From Streptomyces sp. GS7 (GTDB taxonomy: Bacteria; Actinomycetota; Actinomycetes; Streptomycetales; Streptomycetaceae), in contig NZ_CP047146.1 of assembly GCF_009834125.1 (NCBI RefSeq), forward strand, positions 2,349,501 to 2,413,500: a stretch of DNA of 64,000 bases, given 5' to 3'. A program made the translations under genes and the position numbers. Of this stretch, positions 16,880 to 58,151 are shown piece after piece. The notes below the pieces were generated by a model. It did no database searches and was not told where the DNA came from. It worked only from the letters and a program-made list of their open reading frames with translations. Every line of letters begins with the position of its first letter. Position 1 is the stretch's first letter.

Positions 16880-16902
16880 TTGTCAGTGGCGTCAAGTAGC
16901 GT
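16880..16902 (+). promoter_or_regulatory. RecA-NDp (PafBC-type) promoter of the NB-ARC/TPR gene
   Basis: TTGTCAGTG, 8 bp, TAGCGT: an exact match to TTGTCRGTG-N8-TANNNT. The -10 ends 5 nt before GTG 16908, which opens the receptor's frame, so a leaderless start there is possible. Predicts DNA-damage induction. Confidence 0.8.
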
Positions 16903-16997
16903 TTCGGGTGAGGCGTCGACACGGCCGGTACGGCGTCGGAAGGCTCCGCCGGCGGCAGGCCGCGGCGGAGGACGGGACCGAAGTGGGGGAGCACACG

Positions 16998-19151
16998 GTG
17001 GGAGACGACGGGGCGGGCGACAGCCGGGTACGGAACGATTTCGGCGGGACGGCACACGGGCCGGTGATACAGGCCGAGGTGATCGAGGGCGGTGTGCACA
17101 TCCAGACGGAGCGCCCCGCAACCCCGGTGCCACGGCAGGTGCCGACGGCTTCGGGGCAATTCGTCGACCGCGAGCCGGTCATGGCGGCCATCAACGGCTG
17201 GGTGGGCGACGGCGGCGGAGTGGCGGTGCTCAGCGGGCTGCCCGGAGTGGGCAAGAGCGCGGCCGTGCGGAAATGGGCACAGGAGGAGCGCGGGCGCTTC
17301 CCCGGGGGCGAGTTCTACGTCGACTTCGCCGAACTGCGCGCGCAGGCAGGAGGCGATGTCTCCGCCGGCGTGATCCGGTGCTTGCGGGCGCTCGGCGTCG
17401 AGGACTGCTATCTGCACGGGACGCTGGGCGAGTTGACCGCGATGCTCCGCACCAGGACGGCGGACAAACGGGTGCTCATGGTGCTGGACGATGTGACCGA
17501 GCCCGCGCAGGTCCGGGCACTCGTGCCGGGCGCCCCCGACAGCGTCGTGCTCGCCACGAGCCAGGCCGTGCTCGGCGAGCTGGTAGGGGCGGCCCACCTC
17601 ATGCCGGTCGAACCACTGGCACCGGAGCACGGACTGCAACTGCTCCGCCGGCTGTGCGGGGAGGAGCGCATCGCCGCGGCCGAGGAGGGCGCCGCCGAGC
17701 GGATCGTGGCGAGCTGCGGCGGGCTGCCGGTGGCACTGGAGGTCGCCGCCGCGCGCCTGGTGATGCATCCACGTTTGCCCGTCGCGGCACTGGCCGATGA
17801 ATTGGCAGATGACCGGCGCCGGTTGGACGCCCTGCGCCGGGGAAGGGAGCGCACCGTGTCCGCTGTGTTCGGGGTCGCCTACGCCGGACTGCCCGAGGAC
17901 GTCGCGCTGCTGTACCGGCTGCTGGGGCTGTATCCCGGACGTCGCTGGGACGCCGAGACGGCCGCCGCCGCAGCCGGGACGGAGGCCGCCGCGGCAGCCG
18001 AACGGCTCGACGTCCTGGAGTCCGCGAGCCTGGTCACGGTGGCGGCCGACGGACGCTACGAGTTCCACGACCTGGTCCGGCTGCACGCCCGCGAACAGGC
18101 CGCCCAGGACGTGTGCGAGGACGAGCGCACCGCGGTCGTCCGCCGCACCGTGGACCATCTGCTCACCCGCGCCGCCCAGGCCGACCTGGCCGTCATGGGC
18201 CGCCGGATGCGCATCGGCACCTACGTCGACCGGCTGGACGAGACGGACCGGACGACCGCCTTCGGCAGCCGGGAGGAGGCGCTGGACTGGCTCGACGTCT
18301 GGCGCGGCGAACTGCTGTCCGCGCAGCAGGCCGCCGCCGGCCACGCCTGGCACCGTCAGGTCGCGGAACTGGCCGAGGCCCTGACCGCGCTCTTCCTCAA
18401 CCGCAGATACCTCAACGACTGGGTCAAGAGCGGAGATCTGGGGGCCCGGCACGCCGCGGCGGACGGCAATCCGGCCGCCGAAGCCCGGCTGCGGGCGCTG
18501 CTGTCCCGCCCGCTGATGGACCGCGACGAACTGCGCCGCGCCCGCAAGGAACTGGACACGGCCGTCCAGCGTGCCGACGCGTCCGGGCACACGCTGCTGC
18601 GCGCATCCGTCCGCGAGTTCTCCGGCCGCTACTGGGACCGCTGCGATCCGGCCCGCGCCATCACCACCTACGAGGAGGCGATGACGTACTACCGCGCCGC
18701 GGGCGACGCACGCGGCATCGCCATCGGCCTGTATTTCATGGGCTGCGCACAGCACGCCGCCGGCCGCACCGACGAAGCGCACACCACCCTCCAGGACGCC
18801 CACGCCCGGTTCCTGGCCATCGACGACCGCCGGATGGGAGCGCGAGCGCTGGCCGCCCTCGGGGGCGTGCGACGCGACCTGGGGCGGGGCGAGGAGGCGG
18901 TGGCGGCGCTGGAGGAGGCCGTGCGCATGCTGCGGGAGCGCGGCGCCGTCCACTATGAGGCGCAGGTGTGCGAGACGCTGGCGGAACTGGCCGAGGAGCG
19001 CGGCGACCGGGCGCGGTGGCGGCGGTATGTGACGCGGGCGTGGGAGATATACGAGGCGGGCGGCGGGCCGCGCGCGGTGGAGCTGCGCCGCAGGCTGGCC
19101 GAGGCCGACGGCATGGATCCCGCGCAGGGGGGAGAGGAGGCGGGCGGCTAG
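16998..19151 (+). CDS. NB-ARC/TPR receptor (NLR-like STAND ATPase) with RHIM-like N-terminal motif
   Basis: About 717 aa from GTG 16998, chosen for GGGGAG 6 nt upstream; the frame opens at GTG 16908, a possible leaderless start adding 30 Arg-rich residues. Residues 13-34 carry N-D-F-G-G-T-A-H-G-P-V-I-Q-A then G-G-V-H, similar to RHIM-like amyloid signalling motifs. The NB-ARC domain follows: Walker A GLPGVGKSA (80-88, K86), Walker B VLMVLDD (159-165), and GLPVALE as the GLPL motif near 240. Next come a winged-helix segment (Y-E-F-H-D-L-V-R-L-H-A) and TPRs to the end. Such proteins are ATP-gated sensors that recruit an effector by their N-terminus. The Bell-like protein at 25681 carries the same motif. 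The promoter is of the DNA-damage type. Confidence 0.85.
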   Translation: MGDDGAGDSRVRNDFGGTAHGPVIQAEVIEGGVHIQTERPATPVPRQVPTASGQFVDREPVMAAINGWVGDGGGVAVLSGLPGVGKSAAVRKWAQEERGRFPGGEFYVDFAELRAQAGGDVSAGVIRCLRALGVEDCYLHGTLGELTAMLRTRTADKRVLMVLDDVTEPAQVRALVPGAPDSVVLATSQAVLGELVGAAHLMPVEPLAPEHGLQLLRRLCGEERIAAAEEGAAERIVASCGGLPVALEVAAARLVMHPRLPVAALADELADDRRRLDALRRGRERTVSAVFGVAYAGLPEDVALLYRLLGLYPGRRWDAETAAAAAGTEAAAAAERLDVLESASLVTVAADGRYEFHDLVRLHAREQAAQDVCEDERTAVVRRTVDHLLTRAAQADLAVMGRRMRIGTYVDRLDETDRTTAFGSREEALDWLDVWRGELLSAQQAAAGHAWHRQVAELAEALTALFLNRRYLNDWVKSGDLGARHAAADGNPAAEARLRALLSRPLMDRDELRRARKELDTAVQRADASGHTLLRASVREFSGRYWDRCDPARAITTYEEAMTYYRAAGDARGIAIGLYFMGCAQHAAGRTDEAHTTLQDAHARFLAIDDRRMGARALAALGGVRRDLGRGEEAVAALEEAVRMLRERGAVHYEAQVCETLAELAEERGDRARWRRYVTRAWEIYEAGGGPRAVELRRRLAEADGMDPAQGGEEAGG

Positions 19152-19159
19152 CGCCCGCC
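19139..19159 (+). terminator. candidate terminator overlapping the NB-ARC stop
   Basis: GGCGGGCG, gctag, CGCCCGCC: an 8-bp perfect stem whose loop contains the TAG stop. Short degenerate GGACAGGGCA repeats follow to about 19200. Moderate stability only. Confidence 0.45.
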
Positions 19160-19256
19160 CTCCCGGACAGTCCCTTGGGGACAGGGCAGGACAGGACAGG
19201 GCAAGGCCGGGCGGGAACCGGACCGGACTGCACTGCGGGTGTGGGGAGTTGACCCG

Positions 19257-21212
<1,956 letters not shown>

Positions 21213-21285
21213 TGCCCTGGGGAGGTCTCCCGGCGACCCACCGTAGTTCAGGGCCCGCGCGACGGGGCCGCCAGGTGCCCCGACC

Positions 21286-22941
21286 TCAGCCGCCGCCCGG
21301 CTTGCGCCGGCCCGCGCCGCCGATGCGCCGCCGCAGGCCGGTCGGCCCGAACCCGAGGGGACGGGGCAGCCTCCGGGGAGCCGGTTCGTCGCCGCTCACG
21401 GCGGCGGCCGACGGCTGCGCCGGGCCGGGCGCGGCGCCCCCGCGGGCCGCGGCAGCCGAAGCGGCCAGCATGGCCGAGACGGAGGACGGCGCCCCGGGAG
21501 TGCCCGAGCCCGGTGATCGCACCCCGGGCGGGGATGCGGCGGGGGATGGCACGGAAGCCGGGGCCACCGGGCGCGGCAGCCGGGCCACGGGAGCGGCGGG
21601 GGTCACCACATCGACGTAGGCGCGGCAGACCGGTGGCCGGCCGCCGGTGCCGCCCAGCACGCCGTGCAGGGCACCGCGTACGAAGCGGGAGGCCGGGGGC
21701 GGCGACGGCTCGCCGGTGCCGGAGGAGACGGCCTCGCCGGTGGCCAGGTCCCAGGGTGCCTGCACGATACGGCCGATGGCCTGCTGCACGCGGCGGGCGA
21801 GCGAGGGGTCGTCCATGCCGTATCGCCGCACCGCCTCGCGCAGCGCGGCGGCGCCGTGCGCGGCGACCGACAGCCCCTGGCCGCAGTCGGGGGTGACCGC
21901 GGCCACCGCGCCGCCCAGGGCGAGGAACCCGGTGGGCCAGCACGGCAGTTGCTCGTAGCGGTGGCGGCGGGCGGCGGTGTCGCGGGTCAGCCGTACCTCG
22001 CTCAGCGGCTCGGCGTCGGCGATGAGGTCACCGATGACCGAGTCCCCGATCGCACGGGCGAACGGCACGAACCGGTCGGCGCGTTCCGAGGGCCGTTCGC
22101 CGCCGGTGCCGCCACCGGTGAGGGTGACCAGCCAGCGGCCGTCCTCGATCGGCATCAGCGTCGCCGTCCGCGTCGGATACGGCCATTCCGGGGCCGGGCC
22201 GCCATGCTCACCGTCCAGTACGCGCGCGCCGTGGTCCGAACGGGCGGTGATCACCGGGATGTTGTCCGCTCCGGGAGGCGCGCGGAAGATGCGGGTCGCG
22301 GAGACGAGCCCGAAGTCCCGGACCTCCTCCGGGGCGGCCGGCAGGCCCAGGGCCGCCAGCCGGTCCGGAGTGGTGGAGCAGCGGCCGGTGGCGTCGACGA
22401 CCAGGTCGGCATCCAGACGATACGTTTCGCTTGTGGTCGTGGAGCGGACCTGCACCCCGGTGACATGCTCTCCGGTGCCCGTCAGCCGCTCCGCCTCCGT
22501 GCCGTCGAGCACCGTGACCCCGGGGAGCGCCGGCACCTGCCGGCGGATGACCCGGTCGAGCAGATCGCGGGAGCAGGCGAACACATACCGCGGGCGCGCC
22601 CGGCGGCCTAACCGGCCCTGCGCGGAGGACGCGGCGGGCTCCGGCGGCACCGCGATCCGGCGGGCTCCCTCGGCCAGCCATGCCTCGACCGTGCCGGGCA
22701 GCACACTCTCCACGACCCGGGCGCCCTCCGACGCCAGCAAATGGGCGTGCCGGGGCTGCGGAAGGTCCGTCGGCAGCGCGGGAGTCCGCGGCAGCCGGTC
22801 CCGCTCGACCACGATCACATCGGCGTGCTCGGACAGTGCCGCGGCGGCGAGCATGCCCGTGAAGCCGCCGCCGAGGACCACGGCGAGATGCGGGTGCGTG
22901 AACTGGAGTCCGGCGCTGCCGGTGCTGCTCGACGCGTTCAT
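21286..22941 (-). CDS. FAD-dependent oxidoreductase / aromatic-type monooxygenase
   Basis: 551 aa. The FAD-binding Rossmann motif V-V-L-G-G-G-F-T-G-M near residue 25 with E-R-D after it binds ADP. The second flavin motif appears as T-P-D-C-G-Q-G-L-S-V-A-A-H-G near residue 385, and a central substrate domain carries the beta-sheet pattern of the PHBH class. The final 120 residues (Pro/Ala-rich, ending R-R-I-G-G-A-G-R-R-K-P-G-G-G) look disordered. ATG 22941 follows AAGGGGA at good spacing. Its ATG overlaps the stop of the small upstream ORF (ATGA), indicating coupling. The substrate is unknown; oxidoreductase and IclR genes lie divergently, which hints at a small catabolic or detoxification locus. 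Confidence 0.82.
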   Translation of the reverse strand: MNASSSTGSAGLQFTHPHLAVVLGGGFTGMLAAAALSEHADVIVVERDRLPRTPALPTDLPQPRHAHLLASEGARVVESVLPGTVEAWLAEGARRIAVPPEPAASSAQGRLGRRARPRYVFACSRDLLDRVIRRQVPALPGVTVLDGTEAERLTGTGEHVTGVQVRSTTTSETYRLDADLVVDATGRCSTTPDRLAALGLPAAPEEVRDFGLVSATRIFRAPPGADNIPVITARSDHGARVLDGEHGGPAPEWPYPTRTATLMPIEDGRWLVTLTGGGTGGERPSERADRFVPFARAIGDSVIGDLIADAEPLSEVRLTRDTAARRHRYEQLPCWPTGFLALGGAVAAVTPDCGQGLSVAAHGAAALREAVRRYGMDDPSLARRVQQAIGRIVQAPWDLATGEAVSSGTGEPSPPPASRFVRGALHGVLGGTGGRPPVCRAYVDVVTPAAPVARLPRPVAPASVPSPAASPPGVRSPGSGTPGAPSSVSAMLAASAAAARGGAAPGPAQPSAAAVSGDEPAPRRLPRPLGFGPTGLRRRIGGAGRRKPGGG

Positions 22942-23213
22942 GGGCAGTCCCCTTCTCGGCGGTGGCGCGCGATTCCCGGGTGGGACCGGGCCGCGTCCAG
23001 AAAGGGCGGTGCGGCATACGGCCGGGAGCGGCGGCGGCGCGCGGCGGCGATGACGGCGTCGGTGGCGGCGGTGAAGTGCGCCGTCAGCGACGGCAGGGAA
23101 GCGGACGCGGTCCGCAACATGCGCAGCGGTGCCGGTGGAAGCGGCAGAACTCTCTGTAGGTCCCGGCAGGCCGGCGCGAACGCCGGCCTGCCGCCCCCCG
23201 ATTTCCCCATCAT
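22938..23213 (-). CDS. small hypothetical protein coupled to the monooxygenase
   Basis: 91 aa, not recognised. A strong ribosome site GAGGGGGA sits directly before two adjacent ATGs (23213, 23210), and the stop overlaps the next start by ATGA. These are good signs of a real coding unit although codon bias is moderate. Composition is Ala/Arg/Pro-rich with a helical middle (L-R-M-L-R-T-A-S-A-S-L-P) and no membrane segment. A perfect 12-bp hairpin (23165-23192) lies within its first 20 codons. It could instead be a leader ORF controlling the monooxygenase. Confidence 0.5.
   Translation of the reverse strand: MMGKSGGGRPAFAPACRDLQRVLPLPPAPLRMLRTASASLPSLTAHFTAATDAVIAAARRRRSRPYAAPPFLDAARSHPGIARHRREGDCP
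23165..23192. repeat. perfect 12-bp hairpin inside the small ORF
   Basis: GGCAGGCCGGCG, CGAA, CGCCGGCCTGCC. On the transcribed strand the loop is UUCG. It lies 20-50 nt into the leader ORF, where it could act as an attenuator. Confidence 0.6.
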
Positions 23214-23667
23214 GATTCCCCCTCAGGCCGTGTCCGCCCCGCCACCTGCCCGGCCACGCCCTCCGCCACTCCCCGCCCGGAAGACCGGGTGGGGTGGGTG
23301 AGCACCACTGCCTCGCGCAATGCGCTCCGCCCCGGGGAACGCAGCCGTCACATCTGGTCAACGGCGGACACACGACCGGATCGTAGGCGGCGGCGATCAC
23401 TTCCGGTACCCGAATGCGAGTGAGGGATGTGTGGGAGCCATCCGCCGTATACCGCTGGGTAGATCCGAAGCAAAACGGCGTAATGGGAGGAAAACGCCTC
23501 GCTCTTTTCTCGCGACGCGAGAAAGCCGATCGCAATGAGGCAGAAGGCGAACGACATTGGTCCGAGAAAGTCCGGATGGTTGGCGCGAAATGATCGGGTG
23601 GCCGCGGTCCGGTGGACGCCGTGCCTACCCTGTGCGAGCACCGCACTGGAGAACCCGAGGGAGAGTC
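23214..23667. other. divergent regulatory region
   Basis: 454 bp between the monooxygenase unit and the oxidoreductase gene, locally AT-richer (23390-23590) than its flanks. It holds a 19-bp palindrome at 23506-23524 and a possible -10 TACCCT near 23627. No gene is supported. Confidence 0.5.
23506..23524. promoter_or_regulatory. palindromic operator candidate
   Basis: TTTCTCGCGACGCGAGAAA, two perfect 9-bp arms around one base, in the shared promoter region. A natural candidate regulator is the IclR-type protein encoded at 24700. Confidence 0.65.
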
Positions 23668-24612: not shown

Positions 24613-24699
24613 CCCCCGCGACAGGGGCCGCGGGGCGGCCCGCACCGCACATGCCGCGCGCCTTCGGGCGCGGACCACTGCCAGGGGAGAGAGCACACG

Positions 24700-25581: not shown

Positions 25582-25611
25582 ACCGCGCCGCCCGGCCCAC
25601 CGGCTGTTCAT

Positions 25612-26118: not shown

Positions 26119-26159
26119 CCCCGCGCGCCCGGCACCCGGCGGCCGGGCAGAATGGCCGG

Positions 26160-26811: not shown

Positions 26812-28242
26812 TCAGCGGAGCTGCCGGATCTCGCCCCGCACGCGGTAGAACCCGCCCGAGGCGGGGGACAGCCCCTCGACGACGTACCGCACCCCGGGCC
26901 GGCGTATGTGGCGCGGGAACTGGACGTTCCAGGACGGCTCGTAGCCCTCGGAGACCACATGCACCCGCAGGCGGCCGCCCTCCTGCACGCACTCCACGAC
27001 GATCCCCGAGGCCGAGGCGTGCGTCACCGTCTCGACCGTCGCGGACGGGGTGTAAGTGGGCAGCGCGGCGGCCGACTTCACATCCCGGGCGACCGGGACG
27101 GTGCCCGCGCGGGCGGCGGCGACGGCCGCGTCGCCCGCGTCCACGCACACCAGGGAGCCGTCGGTGGTGACCAGATACAGCTTCTCGTCCAGATACTGCA
27201 TCGACAGCGCCGATCCGCCGCCGGTGCCCAGCTTCCACAGGCGGGTGCCGTCCGCGGCGAAGCAGTACACGGAGGAGGCCGAGTCGCCGGCGAAGACATA
27301 CCGGCCGCCCGGGGCGGTGGCGCACGCGTACACGACCGCGTCGCAGCGGTAGGTGGCCTCCAGCGCCCCGCCGCCCTTCGCCAGCCGCTGCACGACGCGC
27401 CGGTCGGTGCCCGCGTAGACGGCGTCGTCCTCCTGCCAGCCGAACAGCACGGCGCCGGTGGTCGGGGTGTGCCACAACTCGCCGCTGCCGTCCGCCGCGT
27501 ACGCCGTCACGCCGCGGTGGTGGCCGTGGTAGACGGCGTGCTCGTCGCGCCGGACCATCCAGGCGTCGGTACCGCTGCTGCGGCGCGACCACTGGTACTC
27601 GTCCTCGTGGTCGATCACCGTCAGCGTGCCGTTGCGGTCGGCGACGTTGAGGACGCCCTCGCGGATGTCCAGCCAGAAGATGTCGGTGTCCCGGTCGATG
27701 ACGTAGGCGGCGAACGGGAGCTTGGAGGAGAGGTCGTAGACCGTCCCGTCGTCGCAGCCGGCGTAGATCCAGAAGTCGTCCGCCACCAGGCACTTGACGC
27801 CGTCCGGGAGCTGATAGCGGGCCAGCACCTCGCCGTCGTGGCCGAGCGTGAAGACCTCGCCGTTCTGATTGCCCACCCAGCAGCGGTCCTCCGCGACATG
27901 GATGCCGAACGCGGCGGCGCCCGTACGGAACCGCCACAGCACCGGCGCGACCGCCCGCGCCGTCGACGGCGCCGACCCGACCTGGCGGCGCGTCACCGGC
28001 CGGGCGGTGCGCTGCCCTTGGACGGCCGGCGCATAGCCCTTGCGGATCTTCTCGCCGATCTTCCTGGCTGCCGCGGCCTGCGCCTTCTCCCGCGTCGGGA
28101 ACGCCGAGGTCTGCGACTGACCGGCCGCGCCGATGCGTCCGTAGCGCACCGAGACGACGGTGTCGTGCACCGCTACCTCATAGAACTTGTGCGCTCCGCC
28201 GCCCTCTTGGGACAGCTCCAGATACGTCGTGGTCTCGGACAT
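26812..28242 (-). CDS. WGR-domain protein with beta-propeller repeats
   Basis: 476 aa. Residues 1-75 form a WGR domain (T-Y-L-E-L-S-Q, K-F-Y-E-V-A-V, then R-Y-G-R-I-G, and R-E-K-A-Q-A-A-A-A-R-K-I-G-E-K-I-R-K-G-Y). This DNA-break-binding fold is known from PARP1-3 and bacterial proteins. Residues 120-400 are repeated blades (V-Y-A-G-T-D, G-R-Y-V-F-A-G-D-S-A-S-S-V-Y-C-F, K-L-Y-L-V-T-T-D-G-S-L-V-C-V) typical of PQQ/WD40-like propellers. No signal peptide. Start ATG 28242 follows GGGAGGGA. The promoter is an exact RecA-NDp match, so a role in DNA-damage sensing or repair is a reasonable inference. Confidence 0.82.
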   Translation of the reverse strand: MSETTTYLELSQEGGGAHKFYEVAVHDTVVSVRYGRIGAAGQSQTSAFPTREKAQAAAARKIGEKIRKGYAPAVQGQRTARPVTRRQVGSAPSTARAVAPVLWRFRTGAAAFGIHVAEDRCWVGNQNGEVFTLGHDGEVLARYQLPDGVKCLVADDFWIYAGCDDGTVYDLSSKLPFAAYVIDRDTDIFWLDIREGVLNVADRNGTLTVIDHEDEYQWSRRSSGTDAWMVRRDEHAVYHGHHRGVTAYAADGSGELWHTPTTGAVLFGWQEDDAVYAGTDRRVVQRLAKGGGALEATYRCDAVVYACATAPGGRYVFAGDSASSVYCFAADGTRLWKLGTGGGSALSMQYLDEKLYLVTTDGSLVCVDAGDAAVAAARAGTVPVARDVKSAAALPTYTPSATVETVTHASASGIVVECVQEGGRLRVHVVSEGYEPSWNVQFPRHIRRPGVRYVVEGLSPASGGFYRVRGEIRQLR

Positions 28243-28289
28243 GGCGCTCCCTCCCGGGCGGTCGCAGCGACCGCCCCCCGTTGTGAAAA

Positions 28290-28312
28290 ACCGTACGGGC
28301 GACCACTGACAA
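28290..28312 (-). promoter_or_regulatory. RecA-NDp (PafBC-type) promoter of the WGR gene
   Basis: On the minus strand TTGTCAGTG, 8 bp, TACGGT: an exact match. The -10 ends 47 nt before the start codon, giving a roughly 40-nt leader with a normal ribosome site, unlike the leaderless uvr genes. Confidence 0.85.
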
Positions 28313-29585: not shown

Positions 29586-30185
29586 TCAGAAGAGGGGGGC
29601 CGGGAGGACGCCCTCCAGGGCCAGCAGCAGCCGCTTGGTCTCCAGACCCCCGCCGAAGCCGCCGATACCGCCGTCGCTGGCCACCACACGATGGCACGGG
29701 ACGACCACCGGGAGCGGATTGGAGCCCATAGCCGCACCCACCGCACGGGCGGCGCCCGGCTCCCCGACCCGGTCGGCGAGGTCCTGGTAGCCGACCACGC
29801 TGCCGTAGGGGACGCCGTCGGCCAGTGCGTGCAGCACCCGTGCGTGGAACCCGGAGGACAGCGACCAGTCCAGCGGGACGGTGAAGGCCCGCAGCTCACC
29901 GGCGAAGTACGCGCCGAGCTCGGCGGCGGCCGTCGCCAGATGGGGTATCCCCGAGGCCGGCGGCCCGCCGAAGGCGTGCTCCAGGCGGGCCTGCGCGCGC
30001 CGGGCCACGCGCTCGTCGGCATGGAACACGACCTGGGCCAGCCCCTCCCGGGTCGCCGCCAGCAGCAGCGGCCCGATGGGGGTCTCGACGCGTTTCCAGC
30101 CCCAGTCGCGGCGGGCCGGGCGGGCCGCCTCCGGACCCGTGTCCGGCGACGTCGCCGGGGCTGGAACCTGCTCTGAGTTCGTCAC
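29586..30185 (-). CDS. ogt: methylated-DNA-[protein]-cysteine S-methyltransferase
   Basis: 199 aa. Suicide repair enzyme that moves the methyl group from O6-methylguanine (and O4-methylthymine) to its own cysteine. The active-site motif is P-V-V-V-P-C-H-R-V, acceptor Cys164. The helix-turn-helix Arg finger region is V-P-Y-G-S-V-V-G-Y-Q-D-L-A (127-139), followed by A-A-R-A-V-G-A-A-M-G-S-N-P. An N-terminal 30-residue extension is Pro/Ala-rich. The start GTG 30185 lies 6 nt behind a perfect RecA-NDp -10 and has no Shine-Dalgarno, so the mRNA should be leaderless. The symbol ogt is by family; Ada-type N-terminal domains are absent. Confidence 0.92.
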   Translation of the reverse strand: MTNSEQVPAPATSPDTGPEAARPARRDWGWKRVETPIGPLLLAATREGLAQVVFHADERVARRAQARLEHAFGGPPASGIPHLATAAAELGAYFAGELRAFTVPLDWSLSSGFHARVLHALADGVPYGSVVGYQDLADRVGEPGAARAVGAAMGSNPLPVVVPCHRVVASDGGIGGFGGGLETKRLLLALEGVLPAPLF

Positions 30186-31645: not shown

Positions 31646-31668
31646 TTGTCAGTGGCGGGTCGTACGGT
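31646..31668 (+). promoter_or_regulatory. RecA-NDp (PafBC-type) promoter of uvrB
   Basis: TTGTCAGTG, 8 bp, TACGGT: an exact match; 7 nt separate the -10 from the uvrB ATG, predicting a leaderless transcript. Confidence 0.9.
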
Positions 31669-31675: not shown

Positions 31676-33817
31676 ATGCGGCCTGTATCAAAGATCGAAC
31701 GCACGGTGGCGCCTTTCGAGGTCGTCAGCTCGTACCAGCCCAGTGGTGACCAGCCGGCGGCCATCGCCGAGCTGGAGCGGCGCGTCCGCGGGGGTGAGAA
31801 GGACGTCGTCCTGCTGGGTGCGACCGGCACCGGCAAGTCGGCGACCACCGCGTGGATGATCGAGAAGCTGCAGCGCCCCACCCTCGTGATGGCGCCCAAC
31901 AAGACCCTCGCGGCGCAGCTCGCCAACGAATTCCGCGAGCTGCTCCCGAACAACGCCGTCGAGTACTTCGTCTCCTACTACGACTACTACCAGCCCGAGG
32001 CGTACGTCCCCCAGTCCGATACGTACATCGAGAAGGACTCCTCCATCAACGAGGAGGTCGAACGGCTGCGCCACTCCGCGACGAACTCGCTGCTCACCCG
32101 GCGCGACGTCGTCGTGGTCGCGTCGGTGTCCTGCATCTACGGCCTGGGCACGCCGCAGGAGTACGTCGACCGGATGGTGCCCCTGAAGGTCGGCGACGAG
32201 ATCGACCGCGACCAGCTGCTGCGCCGCTTCGTCGACATCCAGTACACCCGCAACGACATGGCGTTCACCCGCGGCACGTTCCGGGTCCGCGGCGACACCA
32301 TCGAGATCTTCCCGGTCTACGAGGAGCTGGCCGTACGGATCGAGATGTTCGGCGACGAGATCGAGGCGCTGTCCACCCTCCACCCGCTGACCGGCGAGGT
32401 CATCAGCGACGACCAGCAGCTCTACATCTTCCCCGCCAGCCACTACATCGCGGGCCCCGAGCGCATGGAGAGGGCCGTCGCCGGGATCGAGGCGGAGCTG
32501 GCGGACCGGCTCGCCACCCTGGAGAAGCAGGGCAAGCTGCTGGAGGCCCAGCGGCTGCGGATGCGCACCACCTACGACATCGAGATGATGCGCCAGATCG
32601 GCTCCTGCTCGGGCATCGAGAACTACTCGATGCACATGGACGGCCGCGAACCGGGCTCCGCGCCCAACACCCTCATCGACTACTTCCCGGACGACTTCCT
32701 GCTGGTCATCGACGAGTCGCATGTCACCGTCCCGCAGATCGGCGCCATGTACGAGGGCGACGCCTCCCGCAAGCGGACCCTCGTCGAGCACGGCTTCCGA
32801 CTCCCGTCCGCCCTGGACAACCGACCGCTGAAGTGGGAGGAGTTCCTGGAGCGCATCGGCCAGACCGTCTATCTGTCCGCGACGCCCGGCCCCTACGAGC
32901 TCGCCCGCGGCGACGGCTTCGTGGAGCAGATCATCCGGCCGACCGGCCTGGTCGACCCGGAGGTGGTCGTCAAGCCCACCGACGGGCAGATCGACGACCT
33001 GGTGCACGAGATCCGCAAGCGCACCGAGAAGGACGAGCGCGTCCTCGTCACCACCCTCACCAAGAAGATGGCCGAGGACCTGACGGACTACTTCCTGGAG
33101 CTCGGCATCCAGGTCCGCTATCTGCACAGCGATGTGGACACCCTGCGGCGCGTGGAGCTGCTGCGCGAGCTGCGGGCGGGGGAGTACGACGTCCTGGTGG
33201 GCATCAACCTCCTCCGGGAGGGACTGGACCTGCCCGAGGTCTCCCTGGTGGCCATCCTGGACGCCGACAAGGAGGGCTTCCTGCGGTCCGGTTCGGCACT
33301 GATCCAGACGATCGGCCGCGCGGCGCGGAACGTCTCCGGCCAGGTGCACATGTACGCCGACAAGGTCACCCCGGCGATGGAGAAGGCCATCGAGGAGACC
33401 AACCGCCGCCGCGAGAAGCAGCTCGCGTACAACAAGGCGAACGGCATCGACCCGCAGCCGCTCCGCAAGAAGATCGGCGACATCGTCGCCACCATCGCCC
33501 GCGAGGAGATCGACACCCAGGAGCTGCTGGGCTCCGGCTACCGCAAGGGCGCCGACGCCAAGGACGGCAAGACCAAGGCACCCGTCCCGGCGCTCGGCGG
33601 GAAGGCCGGCAAGGCGGCGAAGGGCAAGGGCGGCAAGGCCGCCGCGCCCCTGACGGACCGCCCCGCCGCCGAACTCGCCGAGATGATCGAGGAGATGACG
33701 GAGCGGATGCGGGCCGCCGCGGCCGAGCTGCAGTTCGAGGTCGCCGCCCGGCTCCGTGACGAGGTGGGCGAACTGAAGAAGGAGCTGCGGCAGATGAGGG
33801 AGGCCGGAGTGAAGTAG
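31676..33817 (+). CDS. uvrB: excinuclease ABC subunit B
   Basis: 713 aa. Damage-verifying helicase-like subunit of nucleotide excision repair; receives DNA from UvrA and recruits UvrC. Walker [14 protein letters not shown] lies near residue 45, and the beta-hairpin with the Tyr-rich [10 protein letters not shown] near residue 100 clamps DNA. Further motifs are D-E-S-H-V-T near 345, S-A-T-P-G-P-Y-E, and Q-T-I-G-R-A-A-R-N motif VI. The C-terminal UVR coiled coil ([12 protein letters not shown], residues about 665-705) contacts UvrC. A Lys/Gly/Ala-rich linker (about 625-655) precedes it, typical of Streptomyces. ATG 31676 gives the usual [10 protein letters not shown] start, 7 nt behind a damage-type -10. 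Confidence 0.97.
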
Positions 33818-48508: not shown

Positions 48509-48531
48509 TTGTCAGTGGCGGTCAGTAGGGT
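48509..48531 (+). promoter_or_regulatory. RecA-NDp (PafBC-type) promoter of uvrC
   Basis: TTGTCAGTG, 8 bp, TAGGGT: an exact match; 7 nt to the uvrC ATG, the same geometry as uvrB. Confidence 0.9.
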
Positions 48532-48538: not shown

Positions 48539-50683
48539 ATGGCAGACCCCAGCAGCTACCGACCCAAGCCGGGACAGATCCCCGACTCGCCGGGGGTCTA
48601 TAAATTCCGCGACGAGCACGGCCGGGTCATCTACGTCGGCAAGGCCAAGAGCCTGCGCCAGCGCCTGGCCAACTACTTCCAGGACCTGGCCGGCCTCCAT
48701 CCGCGTACGCGCACGATGGTCACCACCGCCGCGTCCGTCGAGTGGACCGTGGTCTCCACCGAGGTCGAGGCGCTCCAGCTCGAATACACCTGGATCAAGG
48801 AGTTCGACCCCCGGTTCAACGTCAAGTACCGCGATGACAAGAGCTATCCGTATCTCGCGGTGACGCTCAACGAAGAGTTCCCCCGCGTCCAGGTGATGCG
48901 CGGCGCCAAGAAGAAGGGCGTGCGCTATTTCGGCCCGTACGGGCACGCCTGGGCCATCCGCGAGACCGTCGACCTGATGCTGCGCGTCTTCCCCGTAAGG
49001 ACGTGCTCCGCGGGCGTCTTCAAGCGCTCCGCCCAGATCGGCCGCCCCTGCCTGCTCGGCTACATCGGCAAGTGCTCGGCCCCCTGCGTCGGCCGGATCT
49101 CTCCTGAGGAGCACCGCGAACTCGCCGAGGAGTTCTGCGACTTCATGGCCGGCCGCACCGGCGCGTACCTCCGTCGCCTGGAGCGCCGGATGCAGGAGGC
49201 GGCCGAGGAGATGGAGTACGAGCGCGCCGCCCGGCTGCGGGACGACATAGGCGCGCTCCGGCGGGCGATGGAGAAGAGCGCCGTGGTGCTCGCCGACGCC
49301 ACCGACGCCGACCTGATCGCCGTCGCCGAGGACGAACTCGAAGCCGCCGTCCAGATCTTCCACGTCCGCGGCGGCCGGGTGCGCGGCCAGCGCGGCTGGG
49401 TCACCGACAAGGTCGAGGCCGTCACCACCGCCGGCCTCGTGGAGCACGCCCTCCAGCAGCTGTACGGGGAGGAGCAGGGCGACGCGGTTCCGAAGGAGGT
49501 GCTGGTCCCGGCGCTGCCCGAGCCGGTCGAGCCGATCGCCCAGTGGCTCTCCCAGCGCCGCGGCTCCCTGGTCTCGCTGCGCATCCCGCAGCGCGGTGAC
49601 AAGAAGGACCTGATGGCCACGGTCGGGCGCAACGCCGAGCAGGCGCTCGCCCTGCACAAGACCAAGCGCGCCTCCGACCTGACCACCCGCTCCCGCGCCC
49701 TGGAGGAGATCGCCCAGGCCCTCGGCCTGGACACGGTCCCGCTGCGTATCGAGTGCTTCGACATCTCGCACCTCCAGGGCGATGACGTCGTCGCCTCGAT
49801 GGTGGTGTTCGAGGACGGTCTCGCCCGGAAGAGCGAATACCGCCGCTTCCAGATCAAGGGCTTCGCGGGTCAGGACGATGTGCGCTCCATGCACGAGGTC
49901 ATCGGCCGCCGCTTCAGGCGCTACCTCCAGGAGAAGCAGAAGTCGGGGGAGTGGACGCAGGAGCCGTCCGACGGCGCCCCCACGGAGGCCGACGGCGTCC
50001 CCACGGAAGCCGGCGCCCCCGCCGAGACCGGCGCCCCCGCCGAGACCGGCGCCCCCGCCGAGACCGGCCTCCCCACGGAGGTCGATGGCGCCCCGGACGC
50101 CGTGGACGGCCGCCTCACCGACGACGACGGCCGCCCCAAGCGGTTCGCCTATCCGCCCCAGCTCGTGGTCGTCGACGGCGGCGCCCCCCAGGTGGCGGCG
50201 GCCCGCCGCGCCATGGACGAGCTCGGGATCGACGATGTCGCGGTCTGCGGCCTGGCCAAGCGCCTCGAAGAGGTCTGGCTGCCCGATGAGGACGACCCGG
50301 TCGTGCTGCCGCGCAGCAGCGAGGGGCTCTATCTGCTCCAGCGGGTCCGCGACGAGGCGCACCGCTTCGCGATCACGTACCAGCGCAGCAAGCGCACCAA
50401 GCGGCTGAAGGCGTCCCCGCTCGACGCCGTCGCGGGGCTGGGCGAGACCCGCCGCCAGGCACTCCTGAAGCATTTCGGTTCGTTGAAGAAGCTGCGGGCC
50501 GCGACGGTCGACGAGATCTGCGAGGTGCCGGGGGTCGGCCGCAAGACCGCCGAGACGGTCGCCGCGGCGCTGGCCGCGGCGGCGCCGTCCGCCCCGGCGG
50601 TGAACACCGCCACAGGAGAGATCATTGAAGATGACGAGGCCCCGCCGGCCGCGTTGTCAGCAGAACGGGGGCAGGACCGATGA
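48539..50683 (+). CDS. uvrC: excinuclease ABC subunit C
   Basis: 714 aa. Dual-incision nuclease of nucleotide excision repair. N-terminal GIY-YIG domain ([16 protein letters not shown]), UVR coiled coil ([12 protein letters not shown] near residue 225), RNase H-like domain ([10 protein letters not shown] near 400, catalytic Asp) and two C-terminal helix-hairpin-helix motifs. An acidic Pro/Glu/Thr-rich insert of about 50 residues (near 475-525, containing three 18-bp repeats at 50012) interrupts the RNase H-like domain. ATG 48539 is leaderless behind the damage-type promoter. The stop overlaps rapZ (ATGA). Confidence 0.97.
50012..50065. repeat. 18-bp tandem repeat in uvrC, three copies
   Basis: GGCGCCCCCGCCGAGACC three times, coding G-A-P-A-E-T, inside the uvrC insert. 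In frame; a site of likely length variation. Confidence 0.9.
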
Positions 50684-51666: not shown

Positions 51667-52724
51667 CCGCCCGTACGCCGCGGCTGCGCAGGGTCCGCCG
51701 CTTCGTCCCCAGCGGCCGTACGTCGAAGGGAGCCACCCCGAAGGTGGTGGCGCTCGGCGGCGGTATGGGCCTGTCCGCCTCGCTGGCCGCCCTGCGCCGC
51801 ATCACCGGGGACCTGACCGCCGTGGTCACCGTCGCCGACGACGGTGGCTCCAGCGGCCGGCTCCGCGACGAGCTGGGGGTGCTGCCGCCCGGCGATCTGC
51901 GCAAGGCGCTGGCCGCGCTGTGCGGTGACGACGACTGGGGCCAGACCTGGGCCCGGGTGATCCAGCACCGCTTCACGAGCGAGGGCGAACTCCACGACCA
52001 CGCGGTCGGCAATCTGCTGATCGTCGCCCTGTGGGAGCAGCTCGGCGACCACGTCCAGGCGCTGGACCTGGTCGGCAAGCTGCTGGGCGCGCACGGCCGG
52101 GTCCTGCCGATGTCGGCGGTGCCGCTGGAGCTCCAGGCCCAGGTCAAGGGCCTGGAGCCGGAGCACCCGGATGCGATCTCCACGGTCCGCGGCCAGGCCA
52201 CCGTCGCGCTCACCCGCGGCGAGGTGCAGTCCGTCCACGTCGTCCCCGAGGATCCGCCGGCCGTCCCCGAGGCGGTCGCCGCGGTGCGCGACGCCGACTG
52301 GGTGGTGCTGGGCCCCGGTTCGTGGTTCTCCTCGGTCATCCCGCATCTGCTGGTGCCCGAACTGCGCGAGGCCCTGGAGGAGACCAAGGCCCGGAAGGTG
52401 CTCTCGCTCAACCTCGCGCCGCAGCCCGGCGAAACCGATGGCTTCTCCCCGCAGCGTCATTTGGAGGTTTTGGCCCGACACGCCCCTAAACTCGCCTTCG
52501 ACGTGGTGTTGGCCGACAAGGCCGCGGTGCCCGACATCGACGGTCTGACGGTTGCCGCCAAGCAGCTGGTGGGCAGCGAGGTCGAGCTGGCCGTGGTCGC
52601 CGCGCAAGGAGACGACGCCCGGCCCGGTGCCGGCGGAGCTCCCGACCGGCACGACCCGGAACTGCTGGCAGCCGCGTACGACCGTATTTTTCGGATGCAT
52701 GGAAGGATCGGCCCATGGCGATGA
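51663..52724 (+). CDS. yvcK: gluconeogenesis factor YvcK/CofD-like
   Basis: 353 aa. CofD/YvcK fold binding UDP-sugars: [11 protein letters not shown] near residue 30, [12 protein letters not shown] near 60, P-P-G-D-L-R-K-A-L near 80 and H-A-V-G-N-L-L near 120. YvcK supports growth on gluconeogenic carbon and shape in Bacillus and Mycobacterium. Start GTG 51663 overlaps the rapZ stop. Its end overlaps whiA by 10 bp, the conserved rapZ-yvcK-whiA trio of Gram-positives. Confidence 0.93.
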
Positions 52725-53704
52725 CGGCTGCGGTGAAGGACGAAATCTCCCGGCTTCCCGTCACCCGGACCTGCTGCCGGAAGTCGGAGGTCTCGTCGAT
52801 CCTGCGGTTCGCGGGTGGTCTGCACCTGGTCAGTGGCCGCATTGTGATCGAGGCGGAGCTGGACACGGGCATCGCCGCCCGGCGGCTGCGCAAGGACATC
52901 CTGGAGATCTTCGGGCACTCCTCCGACCTGGTGGTGATGGCCCCCGGCGGGCTGCGGCGCGGCAGCCGCTATGTCGTCCGCGTGGTGGCCGGCGGCGACC
53001 AGCTGGCCCGGCAGACCGGCCTGGTCGACGGCCGCGGACGTCCCATCCGGGGCCTGCCCCCGCAGGTGGTCTCCGGCGCGACCTGCGACGCCGAGGCCGC
53101 GTGGCGCGGCGCCTTCCTGGCGCACGGTTCGCTGACCGAGCCGGGCCGCTCCTCCTCCCTGGAGGTCACCTGCCCCGGTCCCGAGGCCGCCCTCGCGCTG
53201 GTCGGCGCGGCCCGCCGGCTCGGCATCGGCGCCAAGGCCCGCGAGGTGCGTGGAGTGGACCGCGTCGTCGTCCGTGACGGTGATGCGATCGGCGCGCTGC
53301 TGACCCGGCTCGGCGCCCACGAGTCGGTGCTCGCCTGGGAGGAGCGGCGGATGCGCCGCGAGGTCCGGGCCACCGCCAACCGCCTCGCCAACTTCGACGA
53401 CGCCAACCTCCGCCGCTCCGCGCGCGCCGCGGTCGCCGCCGGCGCCCGGGTCCAGCGGGCCCTGGAGATCCTCGGCGAAGAGGTCCCCGAGCACCTCGCG
53501 GCGGCCGGCCGGCTGCGCATGGAGCACAAGCAGGCGTCGCTGGAGGAGCTGGGCGCCCTGGCCGATCCGCCGCTGACCAAGGACGCGGTCGCCGGGCGGA
53601 TCCGCAGGCTGCTGGCGATGGCCGACAAGCGCGCCCAGGACCTCGGTATCCCGGGCACCGAATCGAACCTCAGCGAGGAGCTCGCCGACGGGATGGTCGG
53701 CTGA
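52715..53704 (+). CDS. whiA: sporulation/cell division regulator WhiA
   Basis: 329 aa. A DOD homing-endonuclease-like N-terminal part ([22 protein letters not shown]) and a C-terminal HTH (residues about 255-320; [24 protein letters not shown]). In Streptomyces WhiA acts with WhiB to stop aerial growth and start sporulation septation. Catalytic LAGLIDADG acids are lost in this family. Start ATG 52715 lies inside the 3' end of yvcK. A 17-bp terminator follows. Confidence 0.95.
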
Positions 53705-53725
53705 CCCGGAGCGCCCCTCGTCCCC

Positions 53726-53764
53726 ACGCGCCCCCGGCACCCGCATTGGGTGCCGGGGGCGCGT
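53726..53764 (+). terminator. whiA operon terminator
   Basis: 17-bp perfect stem (53726-53742, 53748-53764) with loop GCATT, 20 bp after the whiA stop. Confidence 0.9.
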
Positions 53765-53878
53765 GCGTGCGGACGCCCTGGGGCGGCGCGTGTGCGCGCA
53801 CGACAGAGGGGCTCGAAGCCGCTCACCTGAGCATCTTTGGGCGCCGATGTCAATGTCACGTACGTCTCTTCCAGGGGG

Positions 53879-53884
53879 TAGGGT
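53879..53884 (+). promoter_or_regulatory. possible gap promoter -10
   Basis: TAGGGT about 73 bp before the gap start, after a locally AT-richer stretch (53825-53870). The -35 is not clear. Confidence 0.4.
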
Positions 53885-53923
53885 CGTAGGCGGTCGGGGA
53901 CAGCCCATACAGCTCGCCGGTAA

Positions 53924-54961
<1,038 letters not shown>

Positions 54962-54997
54962 CCCTGCCCGACGGCGGGCACGGCACCGGAATGTGAG

Positions 54998-55041
54998 GAC
55001 GGGGTCCGTAGGGCGCGAGAACGCGTCGTACGGGCCCCGTC
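54998..55041 (+). terminator. hairpin between gap and pgk
   Basis: 13-bp stem with one G-T pair (54998-55010, 55029-55041). May attenuate or stabilise rather than end transcription, since pgk follows 48 bp later. Confidence 0.6.
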
Positions 55042-55088
55042 CCATGGCGGATAAAGTCCCTTGACGGACTACAACGGAGTCACTTCAC

Positions 55089-56300
55089 ATGAAGACGATC
55101 GACGATCTCGCCAAGGAGGGCGTTGCGGGCAAGCGGGTCTTCGTCCGCGCCGACCTCAACGTCCCCTTGGACGGCACGACCATCACCGACGACGGCCGGA
55201 TCCGCGCCGTCGCCCCGACGATCGCCAAGCTCAGCGCGCTGGGCGCCAAGGTGATCGTCGCCTCCCACCTGGGCCGTCCCAAGGGCGCCCCGGACCCCGC
55301 GTTCTCGCTGGCCCCCGCGGCCGAGCGGCTCGGTGAAATCCTCGGCACGAACGTGGCGTTCGCGACCGACACGGTCGGAGAGTCCGCCCGGGAGGTGACC
55401 GCGGGACTGGCCGACGGCCAGGTGGCGGTCCTGGAGAACCTCCGCTTCAACGCGGGTGAGACCAGCAAGGACGACGCCGAGCGCGGTGCCTTCGCCGACC
55501 GGCTCGCCGAACTCGCCGACCTCTACGTCGGCGACGGCTTCGGTGCCGTGCACCGTAAGCACGCCTCGGTCTTCGACCTCCCCCAGCGGCTGCCGCACGC
55601 CGCCGGCGACCTGATCGCCACCGAGGTCGGTGTCCTGAAGAAGCTCACCGAGGAGGTCAAGCGCCCCTACGTGGTGGTGCTCGGCGGCGCCAAGGTCTCC
55701 GACAAGCTGGCCGTCATCGACAACCTGCTCAAGAAGGCCGACCGCATCCTGGTCGGCGGCGGCATGGCGTACACCTTCCTGGCGGCCAAGGGCCACGAGG
55801 TCGGCATCTCGCTGCTCCAGAAGGACCAGATCCCGGTCTGCCTGGAGTACCTGGCGGAGGCCGAGAAGCGCGGTGTGGAGTTCGTGCTCCCCGTCGACGT
55901 ACTGGTTTCGGCCGAATTCCCGGACCTGAAGACCAAGGCCCCGGCCGACTGGGCGGTCGTCGCCGCGGACGCCATCCCGGCCGACAAGGAGGGCCTGGAC
56001 ATCGGCCCGAAGACCCGCGAGCTCTACGCCGCGAAGCTCGCCGACGCGGGCACCGTCTTCTGGAACGGCCCGATGGGCGTCTTCGAGCACCCCGACTACG
56101 CGGGCGGCACCCAGGCCGTCGCGCAGGGGCTGCTGGACTCGTCGGCCTTCACCGTCGTCGGCGGCGGCGACTCGGCCGCCGCGGTGCGCCTGCTCGGCTT
56201 CGACGAGAATGCTTTCGGCCACATTTCGACCGGCGGCGGCGCCAGCCTCGAGTACCTCGAGGGCAAGACGCTCCCCGGCCTCGCCGCTCTGGAGGACTGA
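55089..56300 (+). CDS. pgk: phosphoglycerate kinase
   Basis: 403 aa. Makes ATP and 3-phosphoglycerate from 1,3-bisphosphoglycerate. N-terminal F-V-R-A-D-L-N-V-P-L-D substrate motif, S-H-L-G-R-P near residue 60, V-V-L-G-G-A-K-V-S-D-K near 200, and the ATP-site G-G-G-D-S-A-A-A near 355. ATG 55089 follows AACGGAG. Two genes of glycolysis flank it on the same strand. Confidence 0.98.
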   Translation: MKTIDDLAKEGVAGKRVFVRADLNVPLDGTTITDDGRIRAVAPTIAKLSALGAKVIVASHLGRPKGAPDPAFSLAPAAERLGEILGTNVAFATDTVGESAREVTAGLADGQVAVLENLRFNAGETSKDDAERGAFADRLAELADLYVGDGFGAVHRKHASVFDLPQRLPHAAGDLIATEVGVLKKLTEEVKRPYVVVLGGAKVSDKLAVIDNLLKKADRILVGGGMAYTFLAAKGHEVGISLLQKDQIPVCLEYLAEAEKRGVEFVLPVDVLVSAEFPDLKTKAPADWAVVAADAIPADKEGLDIGPKTRELYAAKLADAGTVFWNGPMGVFEHPDYAGGTQAVAQGLLDSSAFTVVGGGDSAAAVRLLGFDENAFGHISTGGGASLEYLEGKTLPGLAALED

Positions 56301-56306
56301 ACAACC

Positions 56307-57083
56307 GTGAGTGACCGCACCCCGCTGATGGCGGGCAACTGGAAGATGAACCTCAACCACCTGGAGGCCATCGCCCACGTCCAGAAGCTCGCCTTCGCCC
56401 TCAACGACAAGGACTTCGACGCCGTGGAGGTCGCGGTCCTGCCGCCCTTCACCGACCTGCGCTCGGTGCAGACCCTGGTCGACGGCGACAAGCTCAAGAT
56501 CAAGTACGGCGCTCAGGACCTGTCGGCGCACGACTCCGGTGCGTACACCGGTGAGATCTCCGGCGCGATGCTGGCCAAGCTCAAGTGCACGTACGTGGCC
56601 GTCGGCCACAGCGAGCGCCGCCAGTACCACGGCGAGGACGAGGAGATCTGCAACGCCAAGGTCAAGGCTGCCTTCAAGCACGGTCTGACCCCGATCCTGT
56701 GCGTCGGCGAGGGCTTGGACGTCCGCAAGGCCGGCAACCAGGTCGCGTACACCCTCGCCCAGCTCGACGGCGGCCTGAAGGACGTGCCCGCCGCGCAGGC
56801 CGAGACGATCGTGATCGCCTACGAGCCGGTGTGGGCCATCGGTACCGGCGAGGTCGCCACGCCCGAGGACGCGCAGGAGGTCTGCGGTGCCATCCGCGGC
56901 CGCCTCGCCGAGCTGTACAGCCAGGAGCTGGCCGACAAGGTCCGCATCCAGTACGGCGGCTCGGTCAAGTCCGGCAACGTCGCGGCGATCATGGCGCAGC
57001 CGGATGTCGACGGCGCCCTGATCGGCGGCGCGGCGCTGGACGCGGACGAATTCGTGAAGATCGTCCGCTTCCGCGATCAGTAG
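56307..57083 (+). CDS. tpiA: triosephosphate isomerase
   Basis: 258 aa. TIM barrel that interconverts dihydroxyacetone phosphate and glyceraldehyde-3-phosphate. G-N-W-K-M-N near residue 9 (catalytic Lys), V-G-H-S-E-R-R near 100 (electrophilic His) and the base-containing [11 protein letters not shown] near 172; phosphate loop Y-G-G-S-V near 218. GTG 56307 starts 6 bp after the pgk stop with GGAGGAC inside pgk as ribosome site, so it is co-translated. Confidence 0.98.
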
Positions 57084-57090
57084 CAGCTAT

Positions 57091-57159
57091 GACGACGGGC
57101 CCGGCCCGTCGTACCCTGTCGGGGCCGGGTCCGGCGTCTTGAGCGCCGCTCCCGGCCCC
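57091..57159 (+). terminator. double hairpin after tpiA
   Basis: ACGACGGGCC and its complement (57092-57112), then GGGGCCGGG and CCCGGCCCC (57121-57129, 57151-57159) with inner pairing. Ends the glycolytic unit. Confidence 0.75.
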
Positions 57160-57225
57160 GCACCATTGGTCTTCGGTGGAAGACCGGCACGTTCCGTCCG
57201 TCAGTCCTAGAGAGTTGGTCCAGCC

Positions 57226-57462
57226 GTGGTCATCGGATTCTCGATCGCCCTCATCATCTTCAGCGTGCTGCTGATGATGCTGGTGCTCATGCACAAGGGG
57301 AAGGGCGGCGGCCTGTCCGACATGTTCGGTGGCGGTATGCAGTCCTCCGTCGGCGGCTCCTCGGTCGCAGAGCGGAACCTCGACCGCATCACCATCGTGA
57401 TCGGTCTGCTCTGGTTCGCGTGCATTGTCGTGCTCGGCGTCCTGATGAAGCTCGGCAGCTGA
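57226..57462 (+). CDS. secG: protein translocase subunit SecG
   Basis: 78 aa. Two membrane helices (about 3-22 and 55-74) separated by the conserved loop K-G-K-G-G-G-L-S-D-M-F-G-G-G. Part of the SecYEG channel in the cytoplasmic membrane, helping SecA-driven export. GTG 57226 has only a weak ribosome site. Position behind tpiA is conserved in actinobacteria. Confidence 0.95.
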   Translation: MVIGFSIALIIFSVLLMMLVLMHKGKGGGLSDMFGGGMQSSVGGSSVAERNLDRITIVIGLLWFACIVVLGVLMKLGS

Positions 57463-57525
57463 CATACCGTCGGAGACGCGGCCTATCATGAAAGGCAGCG
57501 TCCTGGGACGGGTAACTCGTGTCAC

Positions 57526-57553
57526 TGGACGCGCGTTGGGCCTTACGTAGACT
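57526..57553 (+). promoter_or_regulatory. rbpA promoter candidate
   Basis: TGGACG, 16 bp, TAGACT: resembles a vegetative (HrdB-type) promoter, 64 nt before the start. In S. coelicolor rbpA is also under sigma-R; no clean GGAAT-N18-GTT was found here. Confidence 0.5.
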
Positions 57554-57616
57554 GGGGCGCCCGCAGCGCGCGGCTGTGAGAGGCATTGCAGCACCATTAC
57601 GCAGGGAGTTACGACC

Positions 57617-57952
57617 GTGGCAAGTGGCAACGCGATCCGAGGAAGTCGGGTCGGGGCGGGGCCGATGGGGGAGGCCGAGCGTGGCGAGTCCGCGCCGCGC
57701 ATCCGCATCTCCTTCTGGTGCTCCAACGGGCACGAGACGCAGCCCAGCTTCGCCGGCGATGCGCAGGTTCCGGACACCTGGGACTGCCCGCGCTGTGGTT
57801 TCCCGGCCGGCAAGGACCGGGACAGCCCGCCGGACCCGCCGCGCACCGAGCCGTACAAGACCCACCTCGCCTACGTCCGGGAGCGCCGCAGCGACGCCGA
57901 CGGCGAGGCGATCCTGGCGGAGGCGCTCGCCAAGCTCCGCGGCGAGATCTGA
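57617..57952 (+). CDS. rbpA: RNA polymerase-binding protein RbpA
   Basis: 111 aa. Actinobacterial transcription factor that binds RNA polymerase and the primary sigma factor and stabilises open complexes. The N-terminal tail and the Zn-binding core show W-C-S-N-G-H-E near residue 35 and C-P-R-C-G-F-P near 57; the sigma-interacting C-terminus is Y-K-T-H-L-A-Y-V-R-E-R-R-S near 80. Length is close to known RbpA. GTG 57617 is preceded by AGGGAG. A very stable terminator follows. Confidence 0.95.
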   Translation: MASGNAIRGSRVGAGPMGEAERGESAPRIRISFWCSNGHETQPSFAGDAQVPDTWDCPRCGFPAGKDRDSPPDPPRTEPYKTHLAYVRERRSDADGEAILAEALAKLRGEI

Positions 57953-57980
57953 CGGACGGCAGCGGACGAGAACGCACCAC

Positions 57981-58023
57981 GAACGGCCCGGCCGGAGGGA
58001 CACCCCCTCCGGCCGGGCCGTTC
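57981..58023 (+). terminator. rbpA terminator
   Basis: 19-bp perfect stem (57981-57999, 58005-58023) with 5-nt loop. Confidence 0.92.
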
Positions 58024-58128
58024 GCGTGGTCCGCACCGGTCAAGCCCCCTGGGCGAGGCGCCGTCAGGGCGCCGCCGGGCGCCCGCGGACGTTCTGAGGC
58101 AGCGGATCGGGAAGGTGCCCGAGGCCCG

Positions 58129-58151
58129 TTGTCAGTGCTCGCCCGTACGGT
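58129..58151 (+). promoter_or_regulatory. RecA-NDp (PafBC-type) promoter of the MFS transporter
   Basis: TTGTCAGTG, 8 bp, TACGGT: an exact match, 69 bp before the start, so the mRNA should have a leader of about 62 nt. Confidence 0.85.

Follow-up and report, generated by a model that had tools for sequence, protein, structure and literature searches.

Putative PafBC-type (RecA-NDp) promoters at DNA repair genes and unexpected partners, conserved across Streptomyces

A 64,000-nucleotide stretch of the Streptomyces sp. GS7 chromosome (positions 2349501-2413500 of 9067183 bases, hereafter the window) carries six exact copies of the promoter motif TTGTCRGTG-N8-TANNNT, and we find that they belong to a larger promoter set shared by the genus. 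We put the probability that these Streptomyces motifs are promoters of the PafBC (RecA-NDp) type at roughly 0.88. As judged from sequence, the regulon is real and conserved in the genus, and we infer that it functions under DNA damage. A LexA-independent damage response was left open in a 2022 study of the S. venezuelae SOS response, in the part of the text available (PMC9380542); here every one of the 61 genus genomes analyzed has the motif, and its targets are named. A doubted second damage response in antibiotic-producing Streptomyces becomes directly testable, testable roles are offered for uncharacterised proteins, those encoded by the E. coli yeh cluster among them, and damage genes are predicted to be widely translated from leaderless mRNAs.

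Exact motifs in the window and along the chromosome

An earlier note on this DNA had placed six exact motifs in the window, and all six were recovered at the coordinates and strands listed below, compared with none in shuffled sequence (0.00 expected by shuffling). Each points at a gene start, and pattern and eight-base spacing equal the RecA-NDp consensus that the note had given as the mycobacterial type. The six motifs and their genes, in window coordinates, are:

16880..16902, forward strand: exact promoter motif of the NB-ARC/TPR gene
16998..19151, forward strand: NB-ARC/TPR (STAND-type) gene; Pfam NB-ARC and TPR_12
26812..28242, reverse strand: WGR and beta-propeller protein, 476 amino acids; Pfam WGR (60.8 bits) and propeller matches of its structure model
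28290..28312, reverse strand: exact promoter motif of the WGR gene
29586..30185, reverse strand: ogt, O6-methylguanine-DNA methyltransferase; Pfam PF01035
30192..30214, reverse strand: exact promoter motif of ogt
31646..31668, forward strand: exact promoter motif of uvrB
31676..33817, forward strand: uvrB; Pfam UvrB and UvrB_inter
48509..48531, forward strand: exact promoter motif of uvrC
48539..50683, forward strand: uvrC; Pfam UvrC_RNaseH and GIY-YIG
58129..58151, forward strand: exact promoter motif of the MFS gene
58221..59495, forward strand: MFS exporter (H+ antiporter type); Pfam MFS_3/MFS_1, NCBIfam TIGR00900 below cut-off

The start codon follows the end of the motif by 7 nt at uvrB and uvrC (ATG in both), 6 nt at ogt, 47 nt at the WGR gene and 69 nt at the MFS gene. 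The placement 5-70 bp ahead of a start proposed for all six holds for these five (6-69 nt) and probably fails for the NB-ARC gene. Its open reading frame extends back to a first possible GTG at 16908, 5 nt past the motif; the GTG at 16983 or 16998 is better by ribosome-site spacing and is the likely start, about 80-95 nt past the motif.

The whole 9.07-Mb genome contains 39 exact matches compared with 1 for the pattern read backwards, and 127 compared with 5 when one mismatch is allowed. A seventh exact copy lies 4.3 kb ahead of the window, so that 7 of the 39 copies fall within 62.5 kb; for this width, which was picked after the data were seen, 2 of 20000 random placements produced a cluster as dense anywhere along the chromosome. 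We read four genomes in full for exact sites, Streptomyces sp. GS7 among them (39, 21, 33 and 19 sites, 112 in total). The earlier note had proposed a genome scan, and had named beforehand an equal frequency of the motif inside genes as speaking against a regulon. Gene-internal sites are instead depleted: 23 of the 112 motifs lie deep inside a called gene, compared with 1653 of 2240 random positions from the same loci. The figure of 23 probably overstates the true number, since open reading frames called from the first possible start swallow some promoters, such as that of uvrB in one genome.

DNA repair genes among the targets

Target genes were named by Pfam content, and the gene names are our own assignments. 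The regulon of repair genes proposed from the window is borne out genome-wide, with an enrichment by raw count: at least 15 of the 39 targets in Streptomyces sp. GS7 are DNA repair, recombination or replication genes. Targets in this genome include recA, ruvC, rarA, ung, uvrB, uvrC, ogt, an AlkZ-like gene, an mfd-like gene, dnaX and pcrA, in addition to genes for a UvrD-PDDEXK protein, a PDDEXK nuclease, an SF2 helicase and a RecD2-HHH protein. Targets found in all four fully read genomes are recA, ruvC, ung, ogt, a SWIM gene and UvrD-type helicases (two families that were merged into one cluster). The uvrB gene recurs in three of the four, in a cluster that also contains the mfd-like gene, and of the other three genomes one (G039) has an exact motif at uvrC. 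Further targets in the other genomes are uvrA, polA, RecD2, a DinG-like helicase (so labelled by us on the basis of its Pfam helicase domains), a DSHCT helicase, an SNF2 helicase and a GmrSD_N protein; as we read the translations, rpsF with ssb after it also appears among them. The targets also include a DarG-like macrodomain gene of the same type as SCO6735, assigned with weak scores by NCBIfam and PADLOC.

Conservation at the same genes in other species

For five of the six window members, other species have the promoter at the same gene; for the NB-ARC gene it recurs only sporadically. At the WGR gene we scored the 80 closest of 382 relatives (79 Streptomyces records and one Streptosporangium): 64 have the exact motif and the other 16 have it with one mismatch. 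The uvrB promoter is exact in 23 of 34 loci and within one mismatch in 33. At ogt, 11 of 31 loci are exact, 20 are within one mismatch and three more are at two; one of the remainder lies at an edge, and seven stand at 4-5 mismatches, where we suppose a distant paralogue or a wrong start. The MFS gene has a relative in 23 of the 61 genus genomes, and among the best 20 loci, the window's own included, 18 promoters are exact and 19 are within one mismatch. Gene-internal windows, used as the control, mostly stand at 4-6 mismatches to the motif and at best at 2. The uvrA gene of the window has no upstream near-motif closer than 5 mismatches. The earlier suggestion of a real regulon with unexpected members is thus supported by the genome-wide set and by these relatives.

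In the genus set of 61 genomes (60 sampled plus Streptomyces sp. GS7), every genome has the motif, with 1514 copies in total (11-44 each) compared with 7 for the control. Twelve named Streptomyces yielded 382 copies (7-46 each) compared with 3. In a sample of the phylum, at least one copy occurs in 74 of 296 genomes, made up of 12 of 12 from the genus, 16 of 23 from the rest of the class and 46 of 261 from outside the class. Genomes outside the class have 0-3 copies, near the 0-2 of the control. The HTH_PafC domain (PF19187) was matched in 236 of the 296 genomes, in 192 of them above cut-off, and PafC-like proteins are more widespread than the exact motif.

The deviations from the pattern are themselves regular. 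Among 35 one-mismatch promoters at the WGR, ogt and uvrB genes, the first T is the variant position in 33. In the SWIM module described below, the MoxR-side site departs from the pattern by one mismatch in 27 of 30 loci, and in the seven such loci inspected CA replaces TA in the -10 element. A better working pattern is therefore NTGTCRGTG-N8-YANNNT. Conservation also extends beyond the pattern: a purine precedes the first T at 91% of the 112 sites, and the first spacer base is G at 77%. The S. toxytricini genome has 7 exact copies only, and its ogt and uvrB promoters stand at two mismatches.

Start-codon spacing and predicted leaderless mRNAs

An ATG or GTG lies 6 or 7 nt past the motif at 52 of the 112 sites, compared with about 6.6 expected (a background of 3.3 per single offset). 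Of the 104 sites with a called gene (8 have none), 58 have an in-frame start 5-9 nt past the motif. Close starts number 713 of 1514 genus-wide, and because related sites are counted repeatedly across species, the start-spacing counts are not independent events. The close-start type includes uvrB, uvrC, ogt and the SWIM gene. Not every start call is secure; for recA, a GTG lies at 7 nt, but translation may begin at an ATG 36 nt further on. In roughly half of the promoters the start codon comes 6-7 nt downstream of the -10 element, where transcription should begin, and we predict that the mRNAs from these promoters are leaderless.

Regulator and alternative explanations

The pafB (WYL, WCX) and pafC (HTH_PafC, WYL, WCX) genes lie directly downstream of pafA in Streptomyces sp. 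GS7. The mycobacterial RecA-NDp/PafBC regulon has the same motif and spacing, the same recA-, uvr-, ruv- and ung-type targets and pafBC beside pafA. The two differ at the R position, where Streptomyces prefers A (77% of the 112 sites) and the other class members listed have mostly G, by eye. To our knowledge, the WGR/propeller gene, the SWIM module and the MFS exporter are not among the mycobacterial targets. By analogy with mycobacteria, DNA damage would generate single-stranded DNA, which PafBC would bind via its WYL domains, letting the housekeeping RNA polymerase start at promoters with TTGTCRGTG on the -35 side and TANNNT at -10. Activation would run independently of LexA, and the promoters would be damage-induced and PafBC-dependent. 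The regulon itself comprises genes of nucleotide-excision, base-excision, alkylation and recombination repair together with conserved non-classical members, namely the WGR/beta-propeller protein, the MFS exporter and the MoxR-DUF5682-VWA / SWIM-DUF5691 module. The portions available of two papers describe activation of mycobacterial PafBC by single-stranded DNA with sigma adaptation (PMC11804915), and a PafBC motif that resembles RecA-NDp in a promoter that extends beyond mycobacteria to other Actinobacteria (PMC8223512).

Four observations weigh against a PafBC regulon conserved in this form. At the threshold applied, 56 of the 112 sites go unmatched between the four genomes: 54 are singletons, and the other two pair up within a single genome. 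The motif has decayed in part of the genus at a jetA-like gene, which is present in 60 of 61 genomes and whose promoter, among the best 30 loci, is exact in 14, within one mismatch in 18 and within two in 27. HTH_PafC occurs in all 23 other class members sampled, yet 7 of these 23 lack the exact motif, and the domain was rejected as a predictor of the motif, not being discriminating within the class. Lastly, in the part of PMC9380542 available, an initial search suggested a lack of conservation of the M. smegmatis motif in S. venezuelae, and the question was left open. Motif drift, as in the variable first T and the few exact copies in S. toxytricini, may explain that negative.

The promoters could be real yet depend on a different activator, or on RNA polymerase with no activator. 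Streptomyces have several PafC-like or WYL regulators, 13 HTH_PafC matches occur in Streptomyces sp. GS7, PafBC dependence is itself drawn by analogy, and the seven motif-free carriers of HTH_PafC fit such a reading; it is nonetheless improbable, given a motif and spacing identical to the RecA-NDp consensus, pafB and pafC adjoining pafA, and repair genes as the largest recognisable target group. Far less probable still is that LexA and the SOS response account for the gene set and that the motif is incidental. The presence of recA among the targets in all four fully read genomes would agree with SOS control, as would one recA region with two LexA-like boxes. A LexA-like box, with one mismatch allowed, lies near only 3 of the 112 sites, compared with 0 of 112 control stretches, and near none of the six window sites, and on this sequence evidence the SOS explanation appears mostly refuted.

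With PafBC-type promoters as the preferred reading, the NB-ARC gene is the weakest of the six members. Its promoter may be a chance or strain-specific gain outside the conserved regulon, a view to which we give somewhat less than even odds. No sequence within one mismatch of the motif was found in the flanks examined around six NB-ARC relatives of 45-50% identity. Against this, the motif in the window is exact, and exact motifs also precede STAND-type genes in two other genomes: a seventh relative in G008 (L240:313-2289; 46% and 51% identity over two parts) begins about 0.5 kb after one, and a gene of 30% identity in G036 (L182:1596-4717) about 0.7 kb after another. A small open reading frame sits between motif and gene in both, and the two frames are 48% identical over 117 residues. 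The link between promoter and STAND-type gene thus recurs sporadically. The window differs from these two loci in having the motif directly ahead of the NB-ARC gene, with no small frame between.

The promoter class itself is already known in Streptomyces. In the parts of the sources available, SCO6735 carries a RecA-NDp promoter and is inducible by ultraviolet light (PMC5087735, PMC9411070), and a RecA-NDp promoter at S. rimosus recA is ascribed to work of 2002 (as cited in PMC5087735). These are promoters of the same class in the same genus that were reported for single genes, whereas here a genome-wide set is described with conservation tests. Three features were not met in the literature searched, mostly by title: the set across the whole genus, the leaderless pattern, and the membership of the WGR gene and SWIM module.

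The WGR/propeller protein and the SWIM module

The WGR domain occupies residues 5-75 of the window protein. In its structure model (mean predicted local distance difference test score of 73.8), four strands and a helix are present at 6-67 with uneven confidence; residues 101-388 contain 29 strands and are followed by a C-terminal beta domain. The solved structures that match the model best are propellers. In PARP1, the WGR domain binds DNA breaks. Our search on WGR domains and Streptomyces found no literature on the window's WGR protein, judged by title. A GC-rich hairpin of varying sequence, often present in WGR leaders (window 28243-28289; loci L043-L122), was considered and is not claimed, as it is only weakly above shuffles (a perfect stem of at least 6 in 26 of 80 leaders and 45 of 400 shuffles).

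The SWIM module is a divergent operon pair, SWIM-DUF5691 on one side and MoxR-DUF5682-VWA_CoxE on the other, with promoter-like sites both ways. The SWIM gene is present in 56 of the 61 genus genomes, and its promoter is exact in all of the best 30 loci; the MoxR-side site is within two mismatches in 29 of 30. As in the yeh cluster of E. coli K-12, MoxR, DUF5682, VWA_CoxE and SWIM proteins are encoded together, with homologues of yehL, yehM and yehP (39% identity for the MoxR, 37% for the VWA and 24% for the DUF5682 protein). The SWIM proteins of the two organisms, YehQ in E. coli, have only the Pfam domain in common. The E. coli WGR gene yehF lies about 7.3 kb from the MoxR, DUF5682, VWA_CoxE and SWIM genes, whereas the Streptomyces WGR protein carries a propeller and is encoded at a separate locus. 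We know of no damage promoter for yeh. A common promoter in one phylum and a gene neighbourhood in another suggest a joint function in DNA damage. It is a tentative and, on balance, unlikely proposal that the WGR protein and the module form an unrecognised damage machine, in which a break-recognising WGR/propeller protein would act with the MoxR-VWA-SWIM-DUF5682-DUF5691 module, the separate loci being tied by the promoter and neighbours in E. coli, and leaderless mRNAs would allow quick translation during damage. PMC7159879 makes no mention of WGR, SWIM, bpMoxR, DUF5682 or DUF5691.

Other targets

The jetA-like gene belongs to a JetA3-JetC3 SMC-type operon that follows a damage promoter (L022 and L312; 3239854 onward in Streptomyces sp. 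GS7). Homologues of JetA3 and JetC3 are present, as in Wadjet type III; an adjacent JetD nuclease was not found, the next two genes having no PADLOC match and the first of them encoding a GDSL lipase. We therefore rejected the assignment to Wadjet type III in favour of a JetABC/MukBEF-like complex.

In addition to the MFS exporter of the window, a tetracenomycin-exporter-like MFS gene (L008:1530-3023, below the NCBIfam cut-off) and an ABC exporter gene (L033:5032-7152) of the same genome start 6-8 nt past exact motifs, and drug exporters therefore recur in the set. A TnpB/Cas12f-like transposase gene (L001:1556-2758) begins 32 nt past an exact motif. One locus of G013 (L166) has two exact motifs 1.3 kb apart, one of them ahead of a protein whose N-terminus resembles that of a second DNA polymerase beta clamp.

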